The position numbers and the translations under genes were made by a program. The notes under the pieces were generated by a model. It did no database searches and was not told where the DNA came from. It saw only the letters and a program-made list of their open reading frames with translations. DNA of 64,000 nucleotides from Desmonostoc geniculatum HA4340-LM1. Lineage in GTDB: Bacteria; Cyanobacteriota; Cyanobacteriia; Cyanobacteriales; Nostocaceae. The stretch covers positions 1 to 64,000 of the forward strand of contig JAHHHB010000016.1 in assembly GCA_019359545.1 (NCBI GenBank), written 5' to 3'. This document shows, piece by piece, positions 30,926 through 42,935 of the stretch (position 1 is the first letter of the stretch; the number at the start of each line of letters is the position of its first letter).

Positions 30926-31195
30926 TTAATGCGAATCCAAATGCGTGATGATGATGCTCATATCCTCCAGATAACGCCAGTAAAAGCGTTTCGCCATTGA
31001 TGCAGAAGAACTCCACAGTTCGCCATCTTTGCAACGATATCGATGGGTTCTTAAGCTGCGATATGTAGCCCCATTATTAGCCAAACATTCAAAAGCTTTA
31101 TCGTATTGCTTGCGGTCTTTTGGGGATAATGAATCAAGTTGTTTTTGGGCTTTTGCAGCGAAAATCAAACCGAATTTAACAGCTTGAATGTGCAT
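30926..31195 (-). CDS. RelE/ParE-like toxin candidate
   Basis: The 89-residue protein has the compact RelE-superfamily layout: a first helix pair (FAAKAQKQLDSLSPKDRKQY and KAFECLANNG), then strands with LRTHRYRCKDGELWSSSAS and KRFYWRYLEDMSIIITHLD. Family toxins usually act as ribosome-dependent mRNA endonucleases or gyrase poisons. No antitoxin gene lies next to it, which is unusual, and the assignment rests on pattern only. It sits 131 bases downstream of cas2 on the same strand. A DUF protein unrelated to toxins is possible. Confidence 0.5.
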   Translation of the reverse strand: MHIQAVKFGLIFAAKAQKQLDSLSPKDRKQYDKAFECLANNGATYRSLRTHRYRCKDGELWSSSASMAKRFYWRYLEDMSIIITHLDSH

Positions 31196-31326: not shown

Positions 31327-31608
31327 CTAAACTATAAACGCAGCGTCATCTACTACAAACTCAGGTTGCGTTCCTAATACTGCGACCTTGCAACGATTGT
31401 GTGCAGACATAGGGTAGAATCTAACTTGGTCTTCGCGTTTGTTAACGAGTCGGAAGAGGTATTTGGATAGGTTTTCATACTGCTTTTCATCCAACACGCA
31501 CTCGAAAACCGACTTTTGCACCCGCAAACCGTAAGCTTCCAGAAGTTTCGCCACTTTGTTGCGACGGGTATCGCTAACAATGTCGTAGCAAACTAAATAA
31601 AACATCAT
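31327..31608 (-). CDS. cas2: CRISPR-associated protein Cas2
   Basis: The 93-residue protein matches Cas2: MMFYLVCYDIVSDTRRNKVA at the start contains the beta1 strand and the conserved Asp; LLEAYGLRVQKSVFECVLD follows, then VRFYPMSAHNRCKVAVLGTQ. Cas2 dimers bridge two Cas1 dimers in the spacer-integration complex. The gene overlaps the end of cas1 by four bases, a sign of translational coupling. Start ATG at 31608. Confidence 0.95.
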   Translation of the reverse strand: MMFYLVCYDIVSDTRRNKVAKLLEAYGLRVQKSVFECVLDEKQYENLSKYLFRLVNKREDQVRFYPMSAHNRCKVAVLGTQPEFVVDDAAFIV

Positions 31609-32651
31609 CGTTTCACCAATTTTAGAGGAACAGTTTGCGGTTCAATGGTGTTGATGAAGTCTGAATGTGCAGGACGAAACTTTAACGCTAGGGGACGATA
31701 AAATTCTATATCTCCCAGTAAAGATGCAAGATATTCTCGTACCTGTAAGTCTAGACATTGACGATAACTTACTTCTCCAGCGTAAGGATGCAGTACAAAA
31801 GTTCGCAATTTTGCTTCCCAATATTGGAGAAATTTTTGTAGAAGTTTCTGTGACTGGCTTTTCCCGTTACCATTCCCATTCCCATTGGTGTTAGTCGAAT
31901 TGCGGACAAAATTTAACACCAAGTCATCGACAATAGGTGCGCCAAATTCTGCGGTGAAATCCCATGCTAAGGGCAATTCATGATGACTATCGCGGTGTAA
32001 AATTGCGTAGTCTGGGTTAAGTCCTGCGGTGTTCAACAGTGTGTAAATATATTGATGCAGCAGTTGATTTCCCAGGTTTATTAGTTGGCTAATGCGCTTT
32101 GCAGTTGTACGCGGAGATTCGTTGTAGAAAGTGAGTAGAGAAGCGACGGCGCAGTAATAAATATTATCAGCTTCTTCGCTGTATTCGTGCAGTTCGTTAA
32201 TTCCTGGTGCTATTGGTAAGTTGTCCATCAACAGCGTTAGGTAATTTAATGCACGTTGAGTTGTGTGATTAGCGTGGTGGCGAGTCCAGCTTTGCAAAAA
32301 AGTATGTTGGTTGTGCAATTTTGCCCAGATAATACTTTCTGCTGTAGCACGGTTAAATTCAATATCGCGTGCGCGTCTACGTTGGTAGGTGAGATATTTT
32401 GCTTGTACTTGAGATGGATTTTCTAGCCTTCCTAAATATTCACCTGTTTGGGTTAAATATAAGACGGGAATCTGCTGTGAATGAACGATTTTAATGACTT
32501 GTTTGGGTAAACTGATATTACCAAAAATGATGAACTGACTCAGATTACGAATGGGAATACAGATACGTTGATTTTGTTGATAAAACACCTTTAAATAATG
32601 GTGTTGAATTTGGAATGTTACGTCCTGTTCGGTGATGTAAATGGTAGACAT
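31605..32651 (-). CDS. cas1: Stand-alone Cas1 with altered active-site residues
   Basis: The 348-residue protein has the Cas1 fold order: MSTIYITEQDVTFQIQHHYL, an N-terminal beta domain (FIIFGNISLP, IPVLYLTQTGEYLGRL), then the helical domain. Aligned by eye with the Cas1 part of the neighbouring RT-Cas1 fusion, the first metal ligand (Glu in YEGRA) is Ser 158 (YSEEA), His 219 is conserved (AILHRD), Asp 231 is conserved and the last ligand (Glu in DLMEE) is Ala 234 (DFTAE). A low-complexity NGNGNGNG stretch (about 256-263) is inserted late. It may be structural rather than catalytic. It is transcribed toward cas2 with a four-base overlap. Start ATG at 32651. Confidence 0.92.
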   Translation of the reverse strand: MSTIYITEQDVTFQIQHHYLKVFYQQNQRICIPIRNLSQFIIFGNISLPKQVIKIVHSQQIPVLYLTQTGEYLGRLENPSQVQAKYLTYQRRRARDIEFNRATAESIIWAKLHNQHTFLQSWTRHHANHTTQRALNYLTLLMDNLPIAPGINELHEYSEEADNIYYCAVASLLTFYNESPRTTAKRISQLINLGNQLLHQYIYTLLNTAGLNPDYAILHRDSHHELPLAWDFTAEFGAPIVDDLVLNFVRNSTNTNGNGNGNGKSQSQKLLQKFLQYWEAKLRTFVLHPYAGEVSYRQCLDLQVREYLASLLGDIEFYRPLALKFRPAHSDFINTIEPQTVPLKLVKR

Positions 32652-32728: not shown

Positions 32729-32793
32729 TATATGAGTTCGTATTTGGGTTGAGGCTATTTTTATATGACTTCGTATATGGGTTATATGAGTTA
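32729..32793. promoter_or_regulatory. TATATGA-motif cluster upstream of cas1-cas2 (candidate operator)
   Basis: It contains TATATGAGTTCGTATTTGGG (from 32729) and TATATGACTTCGTATATGGG (from 32762), followed by a further TATATGAGTTA. The same word appears twice upstream of the HTH-DUF4384 gene (37206 and 37239) and I noticed it nowhere else. The copies lie 78-142 bases upstream of the cas1 start codon. Confidence 0.5.
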
Positions 32794-32978: not shown

Positions 32979-32983
32979 ATATA

Positions 32984-33138
32984 CTAATGCGATCGCACTT
33001 TTTCCTCAGTGATTGCACCATGACAAATCACTAATGCGATCGCACTTTTTTCTCAGTGATTGCATCATGACAAATCACTCATGCGATCGCACTTTTTTCT
33101 CAGTGATTGCATCATGACAAATCACTCATGCGATCGCA
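32984..33138. repeat. 47-bp tandem repeat, about 3.3 copies, each with a HIP1-like site
   Basis: Units begin at 32984, 33031, 33078 and 33125 (partial), each reading CT(A/C)ATGCGATCGCACTTTT, then CTCAGTGATTGCA(T/C)CATG and ACAAATCA. The last partial unit runs into the end of the CRISPR array. Confidence 0.85.
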
Positions 33139-33162: not shown

Positions 33163-34270
33163 GTTTCCATCCCCGTGAGGGGTAAAGGAATTAAAACATG
33201 TAAACAGAGTCAGTGTTATGATTGACGCTAACTGTTTCCATCCCCGTGAGGGGTAAAGGAATTAAAACATAGTTTTCTATGTATTTAACAATCAAATTGT
33301 TAGAGTTTCCATCCCCGTGAGGGGTAAAGGAATTAAAACCCCCATTGTTTGGATATTTAAGAATTTCCGCAAATGTTTCCATCCCCGTGAGGGGTAAAGG
33401 AATTAAAACTTGACGGAGATACTCTCTTGAAAGTTGCTGTTTTGAAAAAGTTTCCATCCCCGTGAGGGGTAAAGGAATTAAAACTTGATCTCAGTTTATC
33501 AACAACAGAAAATGCACGTGGTTTCCATCCCCGTGAGGGGTAAAGGAATTAAAACGTTGATTTTTCACGGCTGTGGTTGCGATCATAGTCTGTTTCCATC
33601 CCCGTGAGGGGTAAAGGAATTAAAACATTTAGATTTCAATGGGAACACGTATATAGTTCCTAAGTTTCCATCCCCGTGAGGGGTAAAGGAATTAAAACTC
33701 ATTATAGCTTTAGTATTAGTTGACAGTCCAGTAGGTTTCCATCCCCGTGAGGGGTAAAGGAATTAAAACCGCGTCTGGAAAGCAACAAGGAATATGCAAA
33801 ATCAGTTTCCATCCCCGTGAGGGGTAAAGGAATTAAAACAAGTTTCTTGGCCCATCAGTAGTTTACGAGATTGATGGTTTCCATCCCCGTGAGGGGTAAA
33901 GGAATTAAAACTAGTGATTGTAATCAACAATCTATTAAGATTGGTTCAAGTTTCCATCCCCGTGAGGGGTAAAGGAATTAAAACACCTTTTTCTACCGGC
34001 ATGGGTATTCCAATACCGATTGTTTCCATCCCCGTGAGGGGTAAAGGAATTAAAACGTTTTAATTGTTAACAGGAACACTAGTTATATTGGTGGTTTCCA
34101 TCCCCGTGAGGGGTAAAGGAATTAAAACTAGTTAATACGTTTTATAACTATAGCGATTACAGCAGTTTCCATCCCCGTGAGGGGTAAAGGAATTAAAACT
34201 GGTCAAATAACAGCAAAAACTGAGGGAAGTAAAGTGTTTCCATCCCCGTGAGGGGTAAAGGAATTAAAAC
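33163..34270 (-). CRISPR. CRISPR array 1: 16 repeats of 35 bp, 15 spacers
   Basis: Repeats start at 33163, 33234, 33305, 33375, 33450, 33521, 33592, 33664, 33735, 33805, 33877, 33950, 34022, 34094, 34165 and 34236. The plus-strand unit begins GTTTCCATCCCCGTGAGGGG and ends TAAAGGAATTAAAAC; spacers are 35-40 bases and all differ. Read on the minus strand the repeat ends in GATGGAAAC, the usual 3' handle, and contains a CCCC/GGGG stem, so transcription is probably leftward from the leader at 34271-34530. The newest spacer is then 34200-34235. All 16 repeats look identical, including the leader-distal one, suggesting an active or recently active array. Confidence 0.97.
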
Positions 34271-34530
34271 CCTACCCATTTAGAAGCCTTATGCAGAAAG
34301 GGTTACAGATACCCATTTTCGCGGGGGGTCTAATTTACTGTCAATAAGCTAGGTTTATTGAGAATTTAGTATTAGTAGACCCTTCTCAAAAGCTTACTCA
34401 GAAAGCTTTTCGCGGGGGTCAACGAAATCATAAGGGTTTGGGCGATCGCCTGACCCCCGCGAAAAATTTACGTACACAAAGTAAAAACAAGTACTTTGAG
34501 ATTCACTTGGAAACGTCAGATTAAGTTTTC
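34271..34530 (-). promoter_or_regulatory. Leader of CRISPR array 1, with CGCGGGGG palindrome
   Basis: This shares several blocks, in inverted orientation, with the region before array 2: GGCTTCTAAA next to the first repeat, GGTATCTGTAACCCT, a CCCCCCGCGAAAA block (34316-34330 on the other strand), and the palindrome TTTTCGCGGGGGTCA (34407-34421) with TGACCCCCGCGAAAA (34451-34465). Shared leader sequence implies that one adaptation complex serves both arrays. Confidence 0.75.
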
Positions 34531-34792
34531 AAGGTTCTGTCTGTTGTTTTAGATAGTATCACAAAGTACTCTGACTTTTCACAGCATCAAACACGAACTT
34601 AACATAAGTTTTCTCTACTACCGCCCCAGTTATTCAAGGTTAGGGACTTCCAGAAAATAAATTATTCAATGGGTGGGAGCAAATATCATCTTAAATTCTT
34701 CTTCCCCTGCCTCCCCTGCCTCCCCTGCTTCCCCTGCTCACCAAAGCAATTGTATATTTTTTTAGTTGGAAGTCCCTTATTTGTGGAACAGC

Positions 34793-36814
34793 TTATTTCT
34801 CCCAAATCATCGGTCGATAAACTTCCACTTCACCCTTCAAACAAGAAATGTATTCTCGTACCTGCAACTCAAGAGCGCGACGGTACACTACTTTTTGTCC
34901 AGTATGAGGGTGCGTCACCTCTGTTTGCAATTTTTCTTCCCAATGTTTCAGAAACTTCTTGAGTGCGTGAGGTTGAAAATACACTCCTTGTCGTTCGTCA
35001 GGTAACGTAAAATCATCAATTGTAAAAACTTCCGAATTTACTAAATAAACTACTAAAGAATCGACCAAACCAGCCCTCCATTCTTCCATTAAATCAGAAA
35101 CTAGTGCTGGATGATTATCGCGGGGAACGTGTAAATTCCCAAAATGAGTATGCAATCCTACAGATTGGATGAACGAATAAACATTTTGGCTTAATAGAGT
35201 GTACCCCAAACTGAGCATACTATTAATTGGGTCAGTGGGTGGACGCTTGGTGCGCTTTTCAAAATTAAACGAACCAGAAAATAAACTTCCCAGAGCTTGA
35301 AAATAAATTGTCGCCGCTCTTCCTTCATATCCACGCAGCATATCCATATTATCTGCAAAAGGTAGTTTGCTCATCAAAATTTCTAATTCCTTAGATGCCT
35401 TTTTGATGATTGTTTCATCTACATTTTTAGATTTTTGACGACGGTTTAACCGCATCAATAATATACGTGAATTATGCAACTTTGCCCGAACTATCGCTTC
35501 AGCTTGCTTTCTGGTAAAATCAGGATTTTGGCAACGCTCAACCTGTAACATCAAATATTCAACTTTAGCATCACCTTCTCCTTGTAATCTGCCAAAATAC
35601 CTGCCTTTCTGCGACAAATACATCATCGGAATCCGTCGGTGCAACGCCATACTCACAGCACCATGTGATACATTACAACAACCAAACAGCACAACATTAC
35701 TCACCCGCGTTACTGGAACTTTAATTCGCAATTCACCTTGATAATAAACTTGAAATTGTTGATTTTTGACGCTCAAATAAGCACCTTGGTCAGTTATATA
35801 TAAAGTAGTCATGGTTTCCTGCCAATAATGAGAAATTGATGCTCTCGGAAAATTGATCGGCTTGTCAATACTGCAAGCTTTCGGAGGACGAGAAACTGGT
35901 TTCGCTGGTCTTGCTTTTCTGCGAAAATAAGGCGTACCCGAATCATTAATTACCCATTCACCAGCGCGTACAGGTTTGGGTGGCGGCGGTGCATAAACTT
36001 CACCGCCAGCAAACCGATAACCCAAAAAGGTAAACTCATCATTAGGAGTAAAAATCTGTGTCTTTTCTGGTTGGAGAGTTAAATAAACCTCTCCTAACCA
36101 AACGATAATTTTGTCCAGGATGCGGTTTGCTTCTTGCCAACTATTACAAGCGATAACAAAATCATCCCCGTATCGCACCAAATTAATGCCTTGACTGAGA
36201 CATTTTCGATCAAAATTAGTCAGATATAAATTTGCTAAAGCGCCAGAAAGTCCCCCACCTTGTAATACTCCTTTGCCAAAGTTCCGATATTGTCCGGCGA
36301 CGATAATTCCTGATTTCAGTTGTCCTTGCAGTAATTGCATTAGACTCGGTTCGAGTGATAATTCCTCCAATGCAGTTAACAACAACGCCCAAGAAAGATT
36401 GTCAAAAAAATCGGCAATGTCGGCTTTGATAATCCATTTGGGTTGATACTGATAGTATCCATATAAATGTTGTACTGCTTGGTGAATACTGTGTCCAGGA
36501 CGATAGGCATAGCTGCAATCAAGAAATGTATCTTCTAAGGGAAAATACAATTCATCGAGTAGTAAACGCTGGATAATTCTATCCCGCACAGTAGGGATAC
36601 CAATTAACCGCTTAGTGCCGTTTTTCTTCGGGATGTAAAACCCTTTGGCGGGGCTGGCAATATAAGTTTCGTGGTGTAGTTGATATGCAATATTCTGTAA
36701 TTGGTCATCAACCATTGACTCGAATAAATCAACAGAAATCCCATCAACACCCGCAGTCTTACTTCCCGCACGAACTTGTAACCATGCGAAATTGAGATGT
36801 TCTTTAGTGAACAT
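34793..36814 (-). CDS. Reverse transcriptase-Cas1 fusion protein
   Basis: About 673 residues from the ATG at 36814; the frame is open to 36871, but those 19 residues derive from TTTTTACTT repeats. Residues 1-285 are a group II intron-like reverse transcriptase: RLIGIPTVRDRIIQRLLLDE, motif A IIKADIADFFD, motif B LQGGGLSGALANL, motif C RYGDD (215-218), TLQPEKTQIF and FTFLGYRF. After a Pro-rich linker, Cas1 begins near 335 (MTTLYITDQG) with all metal ligands in place: Glu 497 (GYEGRAA), His 562 (LHVPRD), Asp 574 and Glu 577 (DLMEEWR). Such fusions acquire spacers from RNA in type III systems. No Cas6 domain is fused. It lies alone between the two arrays. Confidence 0.95.
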   Translation of the reverse strand: MFTKEHLNFAWLQVRAGSKTAGVDGISVDLFESMVDDQLQNIAYQLHHETYIASPAKGFYIPKKNGTKRLIGIPTVRDRIIQRLLLDELYFPLEDTFLDCSYAYRPGHSIHQAVQHLYGYYQYQPKWIIKADIADFFDNLSWALLLTALEELSLEPSLMQLLQGQLKSGIIVAGQYRNFGKGVLQGGGLSGALANLYLTNFDRKCLSQGINLVRYGDDFVIACNSWQEANRILDKIIVWLGEVYLTLQPEKTQIFTPNDEFTFLGYRFAGGEVYAPPPPKPVRAGEWVINDSGTPYFRRKARPAKPVSRPPKACSIDKPINFPRASISHYWQETMTTLYITDQGAYLSVKNQQFQVYYQGELRIKVPVTRVSNVVLFGCCNVSHGAVSMALHRRIPMMYLSQKGRYFGRLQGEGDAKVEYLMLQVERCQNPDFTRKQAEAIVRAKLHNSRILLMRLNRRQKSKNVDETIIKKASKELEILMSKLPFADNMDMLRGYEGRAATIYFQALGSLFSGSFNFEKRTKRPPTDPINSMLSLGYTLLSQNVYSFIQSVGLHTHFGNLHVPRDNHPALVSDLMEEWRAGLVDSLVVYLVNSEVFTIDDFTLPDERQGVYFQPHALKKFLKHWEEKLQTEVTHPHTGQKVVYRRALELQVREYISCLKGEVEVYRPMIWEK

Positions 36815-37046
36815 GATGATAAGTAAAAAGTAAAAAGTAAAAAGGTAAGTAGAGCGGCGTGAATAATTCAAGGTTTGTAGTGTTCGCGTAGCGTCTCGCA
36901 GAGAGGAATTTAGTCCTCATTTGTTCGCGTAGCGTCTCGAAGAGAGGGCTGAAGCCCTCACTACGAAATAATCTCAAGATTTTTTACATTACTTAATCTA
37001 GTTTGATTTATTCTCACCGACTTACTTAAAAGAAAGTAAATATTAA

Positions 37047-37155
37047 GTAGGGTGTGTTACGGCTATGTCAGGATTTGAGCGTTAGAGAAATTATAAATTA
37101 GCCGTAACGCACCACAATCATACGGTGCGTTACGCGTTGCTTTAACGCACCCTAC
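37047..37155. mobile_element. MITE-like element of the GTAGGGTGTGTTA family
   Basis: GTAGGGTGTGTTA at the left and TAACGCACCCTAC at the right are inverted ends (12 of 13 match); inside is an inverted GTAACGCACC/GGTGCGTTAC pair. It is related to the element at 10067-10181. Confidence 0.6.
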
Positions 37156-37205
37156 AATTAAGATTTACTTCTTGCAGTACCTTTGACTTAATTATTGCAG
37201 TGCCA

Positions 37206-37262
37206 TATATGAGTTCGTGTATGGGTTATTGACTCTGCTATATGACTTCGTATATGACTTAT
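37206..37262. promoter_or_regulatory. TATATGA-motif cluster upstream of the HTH-DUF4384 gene (candidate operator)
   Basis: Two copies: TATATGAGTTCGTGTATGGG (from 37206) and TATATGACTTCGTATATGAC (from 37239). They lie 49-105 bases before the start codon at 37311 and match the pair upstream of cas1. The protein encoded next door has an HTH domain, so autoregulation is conceivable. Confidence 0.5.
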
Positions 37263-37310
37263 ATAGATTCCTTCTTCTTTTACCTTTTACCTTTTAACTT
37301 TTTACTTATT

Positions 37311-38057
37311 ATGTCCCGTACTCTGGTTGCATCAACTGAAGGTGTTAAGCTGGTCAAAAAAGCCTTAAAAGCCAGAAACTTAACCCAAACAGATTTTGCT
37401 GCGGAGGTAAAATTAAGTTACACAACTGTCAATAACTTCTGCAACGGTAAAGGGGTATATCGCCTAAACTTTGAAGAGATGTGCGTTTTCTTGGGCTTAG
37501 ACTGGCAAGATATCGCTGTATTTGGTGAACCCGAAAATCAAGAACTCACACCCCTCGATAACCTTTGGCAACAACTTCAATTATTAAGCTCTCCTACTGA
37601 ACAAATGGGGCTAGTCTTAGTAAAAGAGGAAACACTAGGTTGGGGGAAGAATTTACCGAGTCGTTACGAAAAGTCAGTGCAGGTAGGTAGCTACATTCGT
37701 TTTGAAGTCAACTTAGAAACTCCCGGCTATTTACTACTGTTGCAAAAAGATACATCTGGACAACTATGGTGTTTTTGTCCCTCGCGTTTTGCTCCCCAGG
37801 CGCACTTGAATACAGGTAAGACAACTCTGCCTCAAGAAGGTTCGCCAATAACGTCTTTCCCAATAGAAGGAAATCCAGGTAAGGAGGAAATTATCGCAGT
37901 TTTTACCAAGGAAGTACCTGCATTAGACTGGTTACCGCAAGGAAATAATGACCCTTTGGAATTAGAAGCAAGTCATCTTGTGGCGTTACTAGAATATGTG
38001 ACTGGACGTGGAGAATATCAACTTTGGTATACAGATTATATGATTACTGCACGATAA
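37311..38057 (+). CDS. HTH-DUF4384 protein encoded inside the CRISPR locus
   Basis: The protein (about 248 residues) starts at MSRTLVASTEGVKLVKKALK. Residues 8-68 form an XRE-like HTH of the type used as an N-terminal module by many cyanobacterial multidomain proteins (ARNLTQTDFAAEVKLSYTTV, NNFCNGKGVYRLNFEEMCVF, GLDWQDI). After a linker, residues 110-240 match DUF4384 (VQVGSYIRFEVNLETPGYLL, LLQKDTSGQLWCFCPSRF, EEIIAVFTKEVPALDW), a domain elsewhere fused to caspase-like and other effector modules. It is encoded between RT-Cas1 and array 2. I chose 37311 because the 23 extra upstream codons come from repeat-like T-rich DNA. It may be a transcriptional regulator or an effector partner; neither is shown. 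Confidence 0.75.
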   Translation: MSRTLVASTEGVKLVKKALKARNLTQTDFAAEVKLSYTTVNNFCNGKGVYRLNFEEMCVFLGLDWQDIAVFGEPENQELTPLDNLWQQLQLLSSPTEQMGLVLVKEETLGWGKNLPSRYEKSVQVGSYIRFEVNLETPGYLLLLQKDTSGQLWCFCPSRFAPQAHLNTGKTTLPQEGSPITSFPIEGNPGKEEIIAVFTKEVPALDWLPQGNNDPLELEASHLVALLEYVTGRGEYQLWYTDYMITAR

Positions 38058-38099
38058 AAAAGTTAATAGTTTAGGCGTTTAAAACTTCAAGTAGTTTGT

Positions 38100-38389
38100 T
38101 ATACTACTGGTCATAGCCACAGAACCTTGAAAACTTAATATCAGGTTTCAAAATAAAAGCAAAAGTGCTTAGTTTTACTTTCCATACGTAAGTTTTTCGC
38201 GGGGGTAGAGCGATCCCTGAAACCCTTATGATTTCGTTGACCCCCGCGAAAAACTTGCTGGGTATGATTTTGAGATGCCTTAACCTGTATCTGATTGTCA
38301 ATAAACCGTACTTATTGACAAGTAAATTAGACCCCCCGCGAAAATAGGTATCTGTAACCCTCTCTGGACAAGGCTTCTAAAAGGGTAGG
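38100..38389 (+). promoter_or_regulatory. Leader of CRISPR array 2, with CGCGGGGG palindrome
   Basis: It carries the 17-bp inverted pair AAGTTTTTCGCGGGGGT (38190-38206) and ACCCCCGCGAAAAACTT (38240-38256), a third ACCCCCCGCGAAAA block (38331-38344), AACCCTTATGATTTCGTTGA shared exactly with leader 1, and GGCTTCTAAAAGGGTAGG touching the first repeat. The order of blocks is the same as in leader 1 relative to its array. Confidence 0.75.
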
Positions 38390-38932
38390 GTTTTAATTCC
38401 TTTACCCCTCACGGGGATGGAAACTTTGCTTCAACAAGTTGTTGACCAACTTGATAAAGCTGTTTTAATTCCTTTACCCCTCACGGGGATGGAAACTTTG
38501 CACTTAGGTGCAAAGATCGTAAATGTCATTACGTTTTAATTCCTTTACCCCTCACGGGGATGGAAACAAAGACTAATGGCACTGAAGCTCCTCCTCCATT
38601 TCTGGTTTTAATTCCTTTACCCCTCACGGGGATGGAAACTTTGCTTGTTTTTCCCCAACTGTTTCTCCAACTCTTGAAGGTTTTAATTCCTTTACCCCTC
38701 ACGGGGATGGAAACATTGACCCTGTACTACGTCCAATTTCTAGTTGAACAGGTTTTAATTCCTTTACCCCTCACGGGGATGGAAACAGTCTTCATCATCA
38801 CACTCAATCTCAACGACAACTGGTTTTAATTCCTTTACCCCTCACGGGGATGGAAACTAGACTGTTTCCCATGCATTGCATTTCTTAGTATAAAACAGTT
38901 TTAATTCCTTTACCCCTCACGGGGATGGAAAC
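38390..38932 (+). CRISPR. CRISPR array 2: 8 repeats of 35 bp, 7 spacers
   Basis: Repeats start at 38390, 38462, 38533, 38605, 38680, 38752, 38823 and 38898. The unit is the exact reverse complement of array 1's: GTTTTAATTCCTTTACCCCT then CACGGGGATGGAAAC. Spacers are 36-40 bases. With the leader on the left, transcription is rightward and the newest spacer is 38425-38461. The last repeat ends 82 bases before the TPR-CHAT start codon, and the array points straight at that gene. Confidence 0.97.
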
Positions 38933-39014: not shown

Positions 39015-41945
39015 ATGAAAAAACTCTTAAAAAAATTAAATCAACTTAACTTACAGGTTGTGCAACTTGCTGGACAAGGGAACTTAAAGCAAGCAATAAT
39101 TATTGCCCAAGAAGCTGTCAATTTAGGGAAAAGCCAGCAGCTAACTGAGCATTCAGAATATTGTGATAGCTTGAATAACTTAGCAGAATTATATCGGATA
39201 CAAGGATGTTATTTAGAAGCCAATCCCTTATATTTACAAGCATTAACTATTAGAAAAAGTCTTTTAGGTTCAGAACATCCTGATGTTGCACAATCTTTAA
39301 ATAATCTGGCAGCACTGTATTATTCACAAGGGAATTACTCACAAGCCGAAACATATTTTTTAGAATCGCTGGAATTGTGGAAAAGTATTTTTGGAGCAGA
39401 ACATTTTCAAATTGCGACTAATTTAAATAATCTGGCAGAGATTTATCGAGACCAAGGACAATATCTCAAAGCTGGACAAGTACATTTAGAAGTTTTAGGA
39501 ATGCGAAAACGTCTGTTTGGCGATGAACATCCAGATATTGCTCAAACTTTGACTAATCTAGCAGCGCTTTACACATCCCTTGGACGTTATAAAGAAGCAG
39601 AAAAAATGCACTTAGAAACCTTGGCGATGAAAAGACGCTTGTTTGAAGAGTTACATCCTGATATTACTATTAGCCTGAATAATTTGGCCAGATTATACAA
39701 TGTTCAAGGACGTTATCAAGAAGCTGAACAAGTGCATTTAGATGTTTTAGATAGATGGAAAGAAATATTAGGTTCAGAACATCCATACATAGCATCTACC
39801 TTAAGTAATTTGGGGGGAACTTATCAAGATCGGGGGCGTTACATAGAATCCGAGCAAAAATATCTAGAAGCTTTGGCGATGAGAAAACGCTTGCTAGGTA
39901 ATGAACATCCTGATATTGCTAGCGGCTTGGATAATTTAGCAGAACTTTATCTGATTCAAGGGCGTTATTTATTAGCTGAACAAAAGGCTTTGGAAGCTTA
40001 TTCTTTGAGAAAACAACTGTTCAGTTCTGAGGAGTTCGATATTGTTGATAGCTTAAGAATTTTGGCAGTAATTTACACATACCAAGGGCGATATTTGGAA
40101 GCCGAAAAACTATATTTAGAAGTATTACCAATACTGGAAAGCTCACTTGGTAAAGAACATCCTGTAGTTGCGAACACTTTAAACAATCTGGCTGGACTTT
40201 ATGAAGAACAAGGCAATTATTCTCAAGCCGAACAAAAATATTTATTAGCTTTAGAAATTCAAAAAAATCTCTTAGGTAACGAGCATCCTGATATTGCCTT
40301 GACTTTCAACCAGATAGCAGTTATTTATCGGTTACAAGGACGATATGCAGAATCGGAACAACTGCATCTCGAATCTTTGGCGATGGCTAAAAATCTTTTA
40401 GGAGAACAACATCCATTTATAGCAGCAATTCTGAATAATTTAGCAGTGTTATACGATGCTCAATTTAAATATTCAGAAGCAGAATCATTACTTTTATCAG
40501 CGTTAGCTATCGTTAAAAGTGCCTTTGGTGACCAACACCCACAAGTAGCAAGTACGATGAATAACTTAGCGGTTATTTATGATTTTCAAGGGCATTATCA
40601 GCAAGCAGAAGAACTCCATTTAGAAACATTGAGACTGAGAAAGTCATTACTAGGAGAATCACACCCACAAATCGCTAATAGTCTGAGTAATCTGGGAGAG
40701 TTATATTTTTCGCTGGGGCGCTATGAAAAAGCACAACAGAAGTATGTAGAAACTTTGGCCATGAGAAAACGCCTGTTGGGAGATGAACATCCTGATGTTG
40801 CATTTAGCTTAAATAATCTCGCAACGGTGTTAGCTGCGACTAACCGCTCAGATGAAGCTTTATCTCATCGCATCGAAGCCAGTAACATTAATGACAAGAT
40901 TATTAGTAATATATTTGCTTTTAGTTCCGAAAGCGATCGCCTGTCCTTCCTCCAGAAAATTCGCAATAACTTTGATTTATTTCTTTCCCTAGTCTGCAAC
41001 CATCTTGCTAACTCAGATAGCGCCAAACTTGCAGCCTTAGATTTTGTTCTCAAACGTAAAGCCTTAACCGCCTCAGCGCTGGCGGCTCAAAATGAAGCAT
41101 TTTACAATGGCCGCTACCCGCAACAAAAAGAAAAATTCCGTCAACTGCGCGATTTGAGCAATCAAATTATCCATCTCACTTTTGCAGTTCCCGATACCGA
41201 TGACTTAGCTACATACCAAGATAATTTGAGACAACTGCAAAACAGACATAACAATTTACAAAAACAATTAGCGGCACAAGTTCCAGAAATTCAGCTATCA
41301 CAGCAAACTTTCCACCGTGAGGCGATCGCCGCAGCATTACCGCCTAACTCCATTTTGGTCGAGTTTGTCCGCTTTGACGTATTCGATTTTCAAGCAATTT
41401 CGGCGAATGAAGAAATACAATGGCATCCAGCACGGTATCTAGCATTTATTTTAACTGCCAGAAAACTAGATACTGTACAGATGGTAGATTTAGGCGCAGC
41501 TGATACCATCGACAGACTAATTCAAGCCTTTCGCTTAGAAGCATCTGACTACACCCACCCCACATTAGCCTGGGGTAAAGGTAGTCAAGCACCAAAACTA
41601 CACATCAAATCATACAATTCCACAGATGCCATACAACTAACTCAAGCACTGTTTAACCCCATCCGGGACTGTGTAAAAGATTGCAAACATCTTATCATTG
41701 CACCCGATGGTAACTTAAACTTAGTGCCATTTCAGATATTGCCGATTGATGCCACAGGCTCACGTCTATTAATGGATGAGTATACCATCAGTTATCTGGG
41801 TGTCGGGCGAGAAATTCTCCGTAGCAAAGTTCAGCCACCCACAGGTTTTATTTCGACACCATTAATTATTGCCGATCCTGATTTTGATTTATCGGAGACT
41901 GGGGATTGGGGATCCTCACATCTTGCACCAATAAAAATTGATTGA
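39015..41945 (+). pseudogene. TPR-CHAT protein, 5' part (interrupted by a small mobile element)
   Basis: This part has 976 codons. Residues 10-640 are about fifteen kinesin-light-chain-type tetratricopeptide repeats of 42 residues (LGSEHPDVAQSLNNLAALY... pattern), forming a protein-binding solenoid. From about 660 a CHAT (caspase HetF-associated with TPR) domain begins (PNSILVEFVRFDVFDF, LNLVPFQILPID, YTISYLGVGREILR). After IIADPDFDLSETGDWG the frame enters the element at 41911-42073 and stops at a TGA. The catalytic His and Cys lie in the next segment (42102-42935). As it stands, a truncated protein without catalytic residues would be made. The gene starts 82 bases after CRISPR array 2. TPR-CHAT proteases partner with some type III CRISPR effectors, but most cyanobacterial copies have no such link. 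Confidence 0.85.
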
Positions 41946-42073
41946 ATTTGATTACTCAGTAAAAAAGTAAAATCCCTGATTTAGCGATAAAATCCAATAA
42001 AAATCAGGTAGCTTTATCGGACATCTTTTTACTTTATCAGGGGTTGTACGGTGAGGTGCAAGATCTGAGGATC
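41911..42073. mobile_element. Small inverted-repeat element inserted in the TPR-CHAT gene
   Basis: The ends GATCCTCACATCTTGCACC (41911-41929) and GGTGCAAGATCTGAGGATC (42055-42073) are inverted repeats with one mismatch. If one GATC is kept and 159 bases are removed, the codons run TGG GGA TCG GGG ACT GGG and continue in the same frame into the CHAT domain at 42102. The element therefore supplies the stop codon. It landed in an intergenic-type GGGGACTGGGGATTGGG repeat that was itself already inside the gene. Confidence 0.8.
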
Positions 42074-42101
42074 GGGGACTGGGGACTGGGAAAAAAATTT
42101 C

Positions 42102-42935
42102 ATGCTCGATATCCGAAGTCTTCAGTTAAGCGATCGTCTTACACCAACAGGCTTGTTCCGCGCTCCAGGAACAAGGTTTTTGGGGGAAAGTGTAGCGAAA
42201 AAACTGCCTGATGCCAAATTATACTTAGGGGCAGAAGCACTAGAAACCCGCCTGACAAATAGCGAGTGTCCCAGTATCATGCTAATTGCGACTCATGGCT
42301 TATTCCAAAGCGATTCTACACCAGAATCAGCGACTAAAAGACGTAATTTATTAAGTATGGAACGTCAGCGCACAACCAAGGTAGAAAATCCTATGTTGCG
42401 CTCTGGGCTGGCTTTAGCGGGTGCTAATACTTGGCTGGCTGGTGGGAGACTTCCTCAAGCGGCAGGGAAAGGCTTTGTTTTTGCCCAAGATATTGCCAAT
42501 TTAGATTTGTGGGCGAATGAATTGACGGTTCTTTCTGCCTGCGATACTGCCAGAGGAGATATTAAAATTGGCGAAGGTGTATTTGGGTTGCGGCGTGCTT
42601 TTGCCGTTGCTGGAACAAAAACGCTTGTGATGAGCCTGTGGAAAGTGCCTGACAAAGTAACTGCCTTACTGATGGAGCGTTTTTTTGATAACTTGCAGTC
42701 TGGCATGAGTCGGTCTGAGGCGTTACATTCTGCTCAGAATTATATACGTAGAATTACAGTGAAGGAATTGCGCGAATTACCTTTGGGTTTGGAAGTGCTA
42801 AAGGAACTTTTAGCGGTCAAAGAGTTATCAGTCAATAGTAAAATTGATTGTCAAGAAAAAGACACACCATTAGAACATCCCTTTTACTGGGGAGCATGGA
42901 TTTGTCAGGGAAATACAGATCCATTGGTTAACTAG
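42102..42935 (+). pseudogene. TPR-CHAT protein, 3' part carrying the CHAT catalytic dyad
   Basis: 277 codons continue the CHAT domain: LGAEALETRL, the catalytic His in MLIATHGLF (His 65 of this segment), the Cys in LTVLSACDTARGD (Cys 147), then GEGVFGLRRAFAVAGTKTLV and PFYWGAWICQGN at the end. CHAT domains are caspase-like cysteine peptidases. Both dyad residues are intact. Translation from the internal ATG at 42102 would give an isolated catalytic half; more likely it is the separated 3' end of the gene starting at 39015. The frame is open upstream to the mobile element boundary. Confidence 0.85.

Follow-up and report, generated by a model that had tools for sequence, protein, structure and literature searches.

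An RT-Cas1 adaptation island of Desmonostoc geniculatum with a candidate transcriptional switch common to its cas1 genes

The first 64 kb of a 93.8-kb contig (JAHHHB010000016.1) of the cyanobacterium Desmonostoc geniculatum HA4340-LM1, hereafter the window, contain a clustered regularly interspaced short palindromic repeats (CRISPR) island built around a gene that fuses a reverse transcriptase (RT) to Cas1. We interpret it as an RT-Cas1 adaptation island under one dedicated transcriptional switch with an infection-sensing partner, a reading to which we give a probability of about 0.62. It is built on the arrays and their leaders, operators of fixed orientation, covariation of the operator with a helix-turn-helix (HTH) protein, exchange of the sensor and effectors in trans, all of them read from sequence. 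In the proposed mechanism, an HTH-DUF4384 protein would bind a paired operator in its own promoter region, which is shared with the divergent RT-cas1 gene, and would also bind before the standalone cas1-cas2 genes and, in trans, before a cas1 gene on another contig. The bound protein would repress these cas1 promoters. A TPR-CHAT protease, or a NACHT/STAND ATPase or TPR-CHAT part fused to the HTH, would sense infection and relieve the repression. While under attack, the cell would then add spacers to at least two arrays whose leaders are homologous, and type III effectors encoded elsewhere would use them.

RNA-derived spacers of RT-Cas1 systems risk self-targeting, and the timing of spacer writing by Cas1 is a long-standing question that is most acute in these systems. 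Here sequence is enough to name a switch, a candidate binding site, its set of targets in the genome and three alternative sensors. Islands of this kind also occur in the cultures Nostoc sp. PCC 7107, Calothrix sp. PCC 7507 and Anabaena cylindrica PCC 7122.

The operator and its targets

The operator is a 24-bp sequence, TATATGASTTCGTRTATGRSTTAT, composed of two 12-bp direct half-sites and usually doubled at 33-bp spacing. One pair in the window (32729..32785, + strand) lies 78 bp upstream of the standalone cas1 gene. The other (37206..37262, + strand; two 24-bp copies with the 33-bp spacing) lies between RT-cas1 and the HTH gene and has TTGAC between its copies. The shuffled window contained no match. 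Across the whole genome (7.36 Mb in 173 contigs; C numbers denote its contigs and L numbers fetched stretches or loci), six matches with at most three mismatches form three tandem pairs, all at cas1 genes: the standalone cas1-cas2 genes, RT-cas1/HTH and an orphan cas1 on C170. The cas1 gene on C24 was not among the matches at this threshold. Since RT-cas1, cas1-cas2 and the orphan cas1 have this operator in common, the RT-linked spacer-acquisition genes would form one regulon. The orphan (C170:30348-31560; L036 8349-10170) lacks an RT and comes with an operator pair of its own and with a short array whose repeat is of another type. Another genome of the genus holds a comparable orphan cas1 unit (L192).

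Operator scans covered 145 genomes of the family and 291 genomes of the order outside it. The family yielded 82 matches, of which 64 lie at most 1.1 kb upstream of RT-cas1, cas1 or HTH genes, and every match with two or fewer mismatches (55/55) is at such a gene; a reversed control pattern gave 23 matches by hand count. No cas1 was found at the site in five leftover family regions (L208-L212). Outside the family there were at least 49 matches. Among those listed there, 28 are distinct from a low-complexity repeat, and 13 of these fall at already-fetched RT-cas1 or cas1 loci. The remaining 15 regions were fetched without knowledge of their genes: eight proved to be at cas1 or RT-cas1 (one of them a cas1 fragment), two lie elsewhere and five (L194, L195, L196, L198 and L204) have the operator-like site about 40-90 bp upstream of an HTH gene without cas1. 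Three of these five are one gene in related genomes, and the two that were checked are NACHT (L195) and AAA_35 (L204) fusions, so that such genes perhaps belong to a wider, possibly self-regulating HTH family. With sites both at cas1 loci and before cas1-less HTH genes, the operator appears to be this HTH family's site.

A position weight matrix (PWM) with 34 bits of information was trained on 59 family sites and compared with 200 dinucleotide shuffles per region, a region passing if at most two shuffles scored as well. The family figures include the training sites; the outside-family figures and eight later-fetched loci are independent. Upstream of RT-cas1, 26/27 family and 19/22 outside regions passed, as did 23/23 and 2/2 for standalone cas1 and 3/7 and 11/14 for other or RT-less cas1. 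The pair score gave 23/27 and 16/22 for RT-cas1, 23/23 and 2/2 for standalone cas1 and 3/7 and 9/14 for other or RT-less cas1. Operator orientation is fixed, the opposite strand giving a better pair score in none of 50 family RT-cas1 and cas1 regions. The eight later-fetched distinct loci, compared with 100 mononucleotide shuffles each, had the operator at RT-cas1 (7/7), cas1 (6/6) and orphan cas1 (1/1), with 0/100 shuffles as good. Because L187 and L189 represent the contigs already sampled as L171 and L172, each contig was counted once. Both sites of L182 score low (15.7 and 11.9, compared with 25-38 elsewhere), and no operator lies within 700 bp of the HTH start in the L172 and L189 rows.

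The half-site is itself a 12-bp direct repeat, and a similar minisatellite is found in some genomes, as might be seen if the operators were pieces of a mobile repeat, iterons of a plasmid or AT-rich sequence that matches by chance. We consider that barely credible: the operator carries 34 bits of information, its spacing and orientation are fixed, its good family matches are confined to cas1 and HTH genes, and it covaries with the HTH.

The HTH regulator, its sensor partner and the direction of control

The proposed regulator is the 248-aa HTH-DUF4384 protein (37311..38057, + strand; the frame can start at 37242), in which DUF4384, HTH_26 (26.5 bits, cut-off 22) and HTH_3 (24.6 bits, cut-off 23) exceed the Pfam cut-offs. 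Its gene, given no role in the earlier note on this DNA, proved the island's most informative part. The HTH of the PCC 7107 orthologue scores just below the cut-off (20.7). In an AlphaFold2 model with a mean pLDDT of 82, residues 1-75 match XRE folds and the DUF4384 part has the look of a beta sandwich with middling fold matches; a fold search with the whole protein retrieved nothing convincing among the families listed. Above 267 bits, 22 matches were found in the 145 genomes, at RT-cas1 loci and once beside an RT-less cas1 remnant. Among 5.8 billion proteins there are 82 HTH-DUF4384 matches, with no name listed that says CRISPR, and an alignment scan of 84,980 genomes retrieved 13 loci, all from cyanobacteria by title.

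Operator and divergent HTH occur together. Both are present at 35 loci and neither at seven, while six have the operator only and one the HTH only (Fisher p 1.4e-4, relatedness ignored); in five of the six operator-only loci an HTH gene is elsewhere in the stretch. Where HTH and RT-cas1 lie apart (L191), RT-cas1 and HTH each have an operator pair, and cas1 has an operator as well. The two also covary. Loci whose HTH has Arg51 (39 loci) carry G at operator positions 6/18 in 160/172 cases, and those with Tyr (5 loci, L110-L114) carry A in 32/32, at RT-cas1 and cas1 sites alike. A plasmid of Nostoc sp. UHCC 0870 encodes both HTH types, each with its own operator. The Arg/Tyr counts, and those of TTGAC below, omit L153 and L182, whose operators are degenerate, and L141, L157, L159 and L164, which have no clear divergent HTH beside RT-cas1; L127, with a stop within the HTH frame, was omitted from HTH alignment A1. 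On this pattern the HTH protein very probably binds the operator directly.

Alternatively, the operator might be read by another factor, such as the global regulator HetR, with the HTH gene a linked passenger. In the relevant parts of Flaherty 2014 (PMC4192349), the region upstream of alr1468 of Anabaena PCC 7120, a gene described in a passage of PMC3506569 as RT-Cas1, is among 26 HetR chromatin immunoprecipitation (ChIP) peaks, and two further peaks lie within about 6 kb of it. We regard this alternative as improbable, because the operator is unlike the HetR site quoted there, GGGTCTAgCCCagCA, because operator and HTH covary and co-occur, and because operator-like sites also precede paralogous cas1-less HTH genes in the five regions described above. 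Judged by contig and position, none of the RT-Cas1 matches listed for 217 family genomes is the PCC 7120 locus. The clustering of 3/26 HetR peaks within about 6 kb at all1467/alr1468, as given in part of PMC4192349, may point to a tie between heterocyst control and CRISPR adaptation.

The candidate sensing partner is encoded to the right of array 2 by a gene for a TPR-CHAT (caspase-like) protease (39015..42935, + strand), interrupted at about 41920-42100. Its second open reading frame (42102-42935) holds the conserved His (ATHG) and Cys (SACDT). The insertion is MITE-like, with inverted ends matching at 18/19 positions as read by eye; a script set to find exact inverted repeats of at least 12 nt detected none there. 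Uninterrupted frames are present in L103, L104 and L171. In 19 RT-linked relatives, the frame with the CHAT end measures 1,228-1,300 codons in 14, the others being fused, broken or truncated where the locus ends; all 19 have the His motif and 18/19 the Cys motif, and for the remaining one (L111) the alignment shows the Cys. Orthologues (C-terminal part, E up to 1e-90) were retrieved in 21 of the 145 genomes, 20 of them with RT-Cas1. In L169 and L170, stretches that contain no RT-cas1, TPR-CHAT adjoins a DUF4384 half without an HTH match, and the DUF4384/TPR-CHAT pair may work outside CRISPR too.

The proposed sensor half is interchangeable. The usual family arrangement is HTH-DUF4384 plus a separate TPR-CHAT, and in L126 the HTH is fused to TPR-CHAT. 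In L115, L116 and L128 it is fused to a NACHT/STAND ATPase, with no TPR-CHAT in the fetched stretches (of the fused loci, L116 and L126 were checked with Pfam). Outside the family, an HTH-STAND gene is divergent to RT-cas1 in 13/26 loci by hand count. The operator is kept when the other half of the regulator switches from DUF4384 plus TPR-CHAT to HTH-TPR-CHAT or HTH-NACHT/STAND.

Repression rather than activation is the direction of control that we consider probable, and relief of that repression by proteolysis or by a STAND partner is proposed more tentatively. The model of repression and relief follows from TTGAC inside the operator, the protease or STAND partner and the parallel to type III-E systems discussed below. 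TTGAC stands between the copies at 20/25 HTH/RT sites and at 0/11 cas1 sites, a difference that suggests an HTH promoter inside the operator, as in autorepression. The opposite sign of control is possible, albeit less probable: the HTH would be an activator, the signalled protein or a STAND/HTH oligomer binding the paired operators and recruiting RNA polymerase to the cas1 promoters. STAND ATPases typically oligomerise once activated, which fits an activator. Activated promoters might also look like the cas1-side sites, with no TTGAC between copies, and might have no sigma-70-like promoter over the operators, and a sigma-70 scan listed none over either pair of the window, so that the promoter is read by eye. 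The HTH side, however, is repressor-like, with its TTGAC and, by eye, a second copy over the expected -10.

The same switch at RT-cas1, cas1-cas2 and a distant cas1, apparently read by a nearby regulator tied to a caspase-like protease or an NLR-like sensor, suggests that an alarm turns memory formation on. In the most far-reaching form of the repression model, which we put forward as a conjecture somewhat short of even odds, an innate alarm would gate adaptation: an interchangeable sensor would control one HTH on all RT-linked cas1 promoters, across several contigs or replicons, which would open only during infection. If so, one operator code would link innate sensing, NLR-like (STAND) or caspase-like (TPR-CHAT), to CRISPR memory.

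Several observations weigh against the proposed switch, the empty sigma-70 scan among them. The other 18 family matches all have three mismatches, and 13 of them are one low-complexity repeat; outside the family, 21 of the at least 49 matches are low-complexity repeat, five of these with only two mismatches. Operators are weak in L161-L164. L153 has a divergent HTH and only a degenerate operator, in L121 the operator is present and no HTH was found in the locus, and L118 has RT-cas1 with neither. Two incomplete DUF4384 halves, scoring 187 and 165 bits, lie elsewhere than at RT-cas1. The change from Arg to Tyr may be a single evolutionary event, and in the AlphaFold2 model Arg51 is the first residue of the helix that follows the presumed recognition helix (37-44) and is not part of the latter. 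More generally, the loci are kin to one another and the counts are not independent events. As for the sensor, a CHAT profile compared with solved structures, Csx29 included, detected no sequence relationship, and TPR-CHAT is interrupted in the window's genome and was not found beside the HTH-DUF4384 gene of L114, so it is not strictly required. With its protease gene broken, this strain may have lost or altered the sensing step and may be fixed in one state.

Relation to known adaptation modules

The island shares with described modules the RT-Cas1 fusion in cyanobacteria, a second cas1 and effectors located elsewhere. According to passages of Toro 2017 (PMC5541045), RT-CRISPR-3 of cyanobacteria has a second, unrelated cas1 in the module. 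Passages of Silas 2017 (PMC5513706), whose branch 5 corresponds to such modules, state that roughly half of the RT-cas loci have no effectors and might function in trans, and that the spacers are of unknown source. The main text of Toro 2017 contains neither 'HTH' nor 'CHAT', and section 6 of Silas 2017 names no regulator or operator. The legend of Fig. 6B in Altae-Tran 2023 (PMC10910872) associates adaptation modules with HTH, CHAT, NACHT and RVT domains, and the passages on these associations give no operator, regulon or mechanism. Our literature search, outside which most subscription papers lay, retrieved no paper on the operator or regulon.

The closest parallel is with type III-E (CASP/Craspase). 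The parts of Strecker 2022 (PMC10028731) on this system describe Cas7-11, the TPR-CHAT protein Csx29, Csx30 and CASP-sigma, with a CASP-sigma binding motif in the cas1 promoter, and the authors propose acquisition during active infection. In both, a TPR-CHAT protease adjoins a transcription-control protein linked to a cas1 promoter. The island protease has TPR and CHAT domains and the His and Cys, with no sequence match to solved Csx29. Unlike type III-E, the island has an XRE-type HTH in place of the sigma/anti-sigma proteins (no search for csx30 or sigma factors was made), its regulon would act in trans, and STAND or fused alternatives exist. No Cas7-11 (gRAMP) was present among the ten proteins examined, the best being a RAMP protein on C47 with 86.1 bits against a cut-off of 700. 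The parallel suggests that coupling of caspase-like or NLR-like sensing to cas1 transcription may have arisen more than once.

An XRE-type repressor of a defence operon that is taken off by a protease is a known theme which the model resembles. Another precedent is Csa3a, reportedly a MarR-like archaeal factor of a type I-A system, which is not known to have a protease or STAND half. As described in part of PMC4333418, the adaptation genes of Sulfolobus islandicus, cas1 among them, are controlled by the transcription factor Csa3a encoded nearby, and the island likewise has a transcription factor next to such genes.

Island genes, effectors and arrays

The RT-Cas1 fusion (34793..36814, - strand; start taken as the ATG at 36814) has RVT_1 (125 bits) and Cas_Cas1 (298 bits) Pfam matches in one frame, with a YGDD motif at residue 215, so that an RT domain with its catalytic motif is fused to Cas1. 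The island extends to the left of array 1, a part that the earlier note, which also does not mention the paired operators, leaves uncovered, with a standalone Cas1 of 348 aa (31605..32651, - strand; Cas_Cas1, 180 bits), a Cas2 of 93 aa (31327..31608, - strand; CRISPR_Cas2, 84 bits) and a gene for an 89-aa protein (30926..31195, - strand), which lies beside cas2 in many relatives' islands (tblastn). The 89-aa protein has no Pfam family over cut-off (PAS_3 is below); a by-eye label of RelE was dropped, no Pfam family supporting it. By alignment of Cas1 proteins, the cas1 with cas2 in the module (31327-32651) is a second, more distant cas1. The idea of one machinery was therefore too simple, the island having two Cas1 types and Cas2, with a third, operator-bearing cas1 on C170. 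A plasmid of Nostoc sp. TCL26-01 (L137) carries a second island copy that is apparently decayed, with RT-cas1 split.

At the genome level, type III CRISPR-Cas is present, with Cas10 and RAMP genes. The Cas1 matches number four (two in the window, one on C24 and one on C170) and the RAMP matches six, on C47 and C48. C47 has a III-D-like operon with Csx10 (460.6 bits, cut-off 177.3) and Cas10 (140.8 bits, cut-off 79.4). C48 has a III-B-like operon with Cmr4 (92.7 bits, cut-off 87) and a Cas10 that passes the Pfam cut-off and fails that of NCBIfam. Cas6 is encoded on C59 and C24, the latter cas locus being labelled I-D by eye. The fetched stretches of C47 and C48 (20 kb and 14 kb) contained no arrays. 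The earlier note had taken the region of the two arrays for an adaptation island without effectors whose interference genes lie elsewhere, and the genome search for Cas10/Cmr genes and arrays with the same repeat agrees, finding effectors on C47 and C48 and an array on C67; interference would thus act in trans. Its overall interpretation held for the effectors in trans and the homologous leaders, and fell short on the number of tracks and the single machinery.

Array 1 (33163..34270, - strand) has 16 exact repeats and 15 spacers of 35-40 nt, and array 2 (38390..38932, + strand) has eight exact repeats and seven spacers. Both use one 35-bp repeat, whose ...GGAAAC end is directed away from RT-cas1 on either side. 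The leaders of array 1 (34271..34600, - strand) and array 2 (38060..38389, + strand) are homologous and 77% identical (256/331; pairwise score 178, compared with a maximum of 20.5 in 100 shuffles). The inner ends, 34236-34540 and 38119-38424, form inverted repeats (104 nt at 95% and 202 nt at 78%). The repeat in opposite orientations, the shared inner-end blocks and the RT-Cas1 and HTH-DUF4384 genes between them had thus been placed correctly, and the orientation of repeats and leaders suggests that both arrays would be transcribed outward. The two recording tracks once proposed were too few, since an array on C67 with the same repeat and a homologous leader (249/331) makes a third; related arrays or leaders are also found on C49 and C170.

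The arrays have no spacers in common. A recent inversion or duplication of array 1 as the source of array 2 was rejected because the leaders differ by 23% and no spacers are shared; the origin by inversion or duplication suggested earlier does not stand as a recent event. This genome is not alone in having the outward layout, which recurs in at least 12 distinct loci (the window, L104, L133, L171, L186, L190, L145-L149 and L153; orientation at some, left open by the script, was read from the repeat by eye). That the island is an ordinary RT-Cas1 adaptation module, its outward pair an accident of array duplication without function of its own, is a plausible explanation, at somewhat less than even odds. 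Arrays with related leaders away from the island (C67, C49 and C170) are consistent with it, as are relatives that have just one of the two arrays, whether array 1 or array 2 (L103 and L188), and repeat variants that differ between the two sides in L104, L133, L171 and L190. Yet outward pairs recur, with leaders homologous in all eight pairs compared, each beyond 100 shuffles, and this explanation concerns the layout only and leaves the operator regulon unaffected.

Spacer targets were sought in several collections. Neither array had a protospacer among 50,697 phage records, the one weak match being of 28 nt in a Staphylococcus phage. Array 1 had none among plasmids, where it retrieved CRISPR arrays of cyanobacterial plasmids and weak matches only. 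An exact scan of IMG/VR covered the cores of eight window spacers out of 22, and seven had no match; that of the newest spacer matched one contig, with which the full spacer agrees at only 26/36 bases, and was taken as chance. No window spacer was found in L186-L192 at E 1e-4 or among the L171 spacers at E 0.01.

Some minor features of the arrays were also noted. Both leaders (34271-34600 and 38060-38389) keep the inverted motifs TTTTTCGCGGGGGT...ACCCCCGCGAAAA and CAATAA...TTATTGAC. Three 47-bp tandem repeats with GCGATCGC cores lie at 32983-33138, just past the distal end of array 1. On a plasmid of Nostoc edaphicum CCNP1411 (L186; 2946-6688 and 10521-16279), RT genes lie inside both CRISPR arrays and split them into pieces; these genes are about 33-35% identical to the RT query and look group II intron-like by eye.

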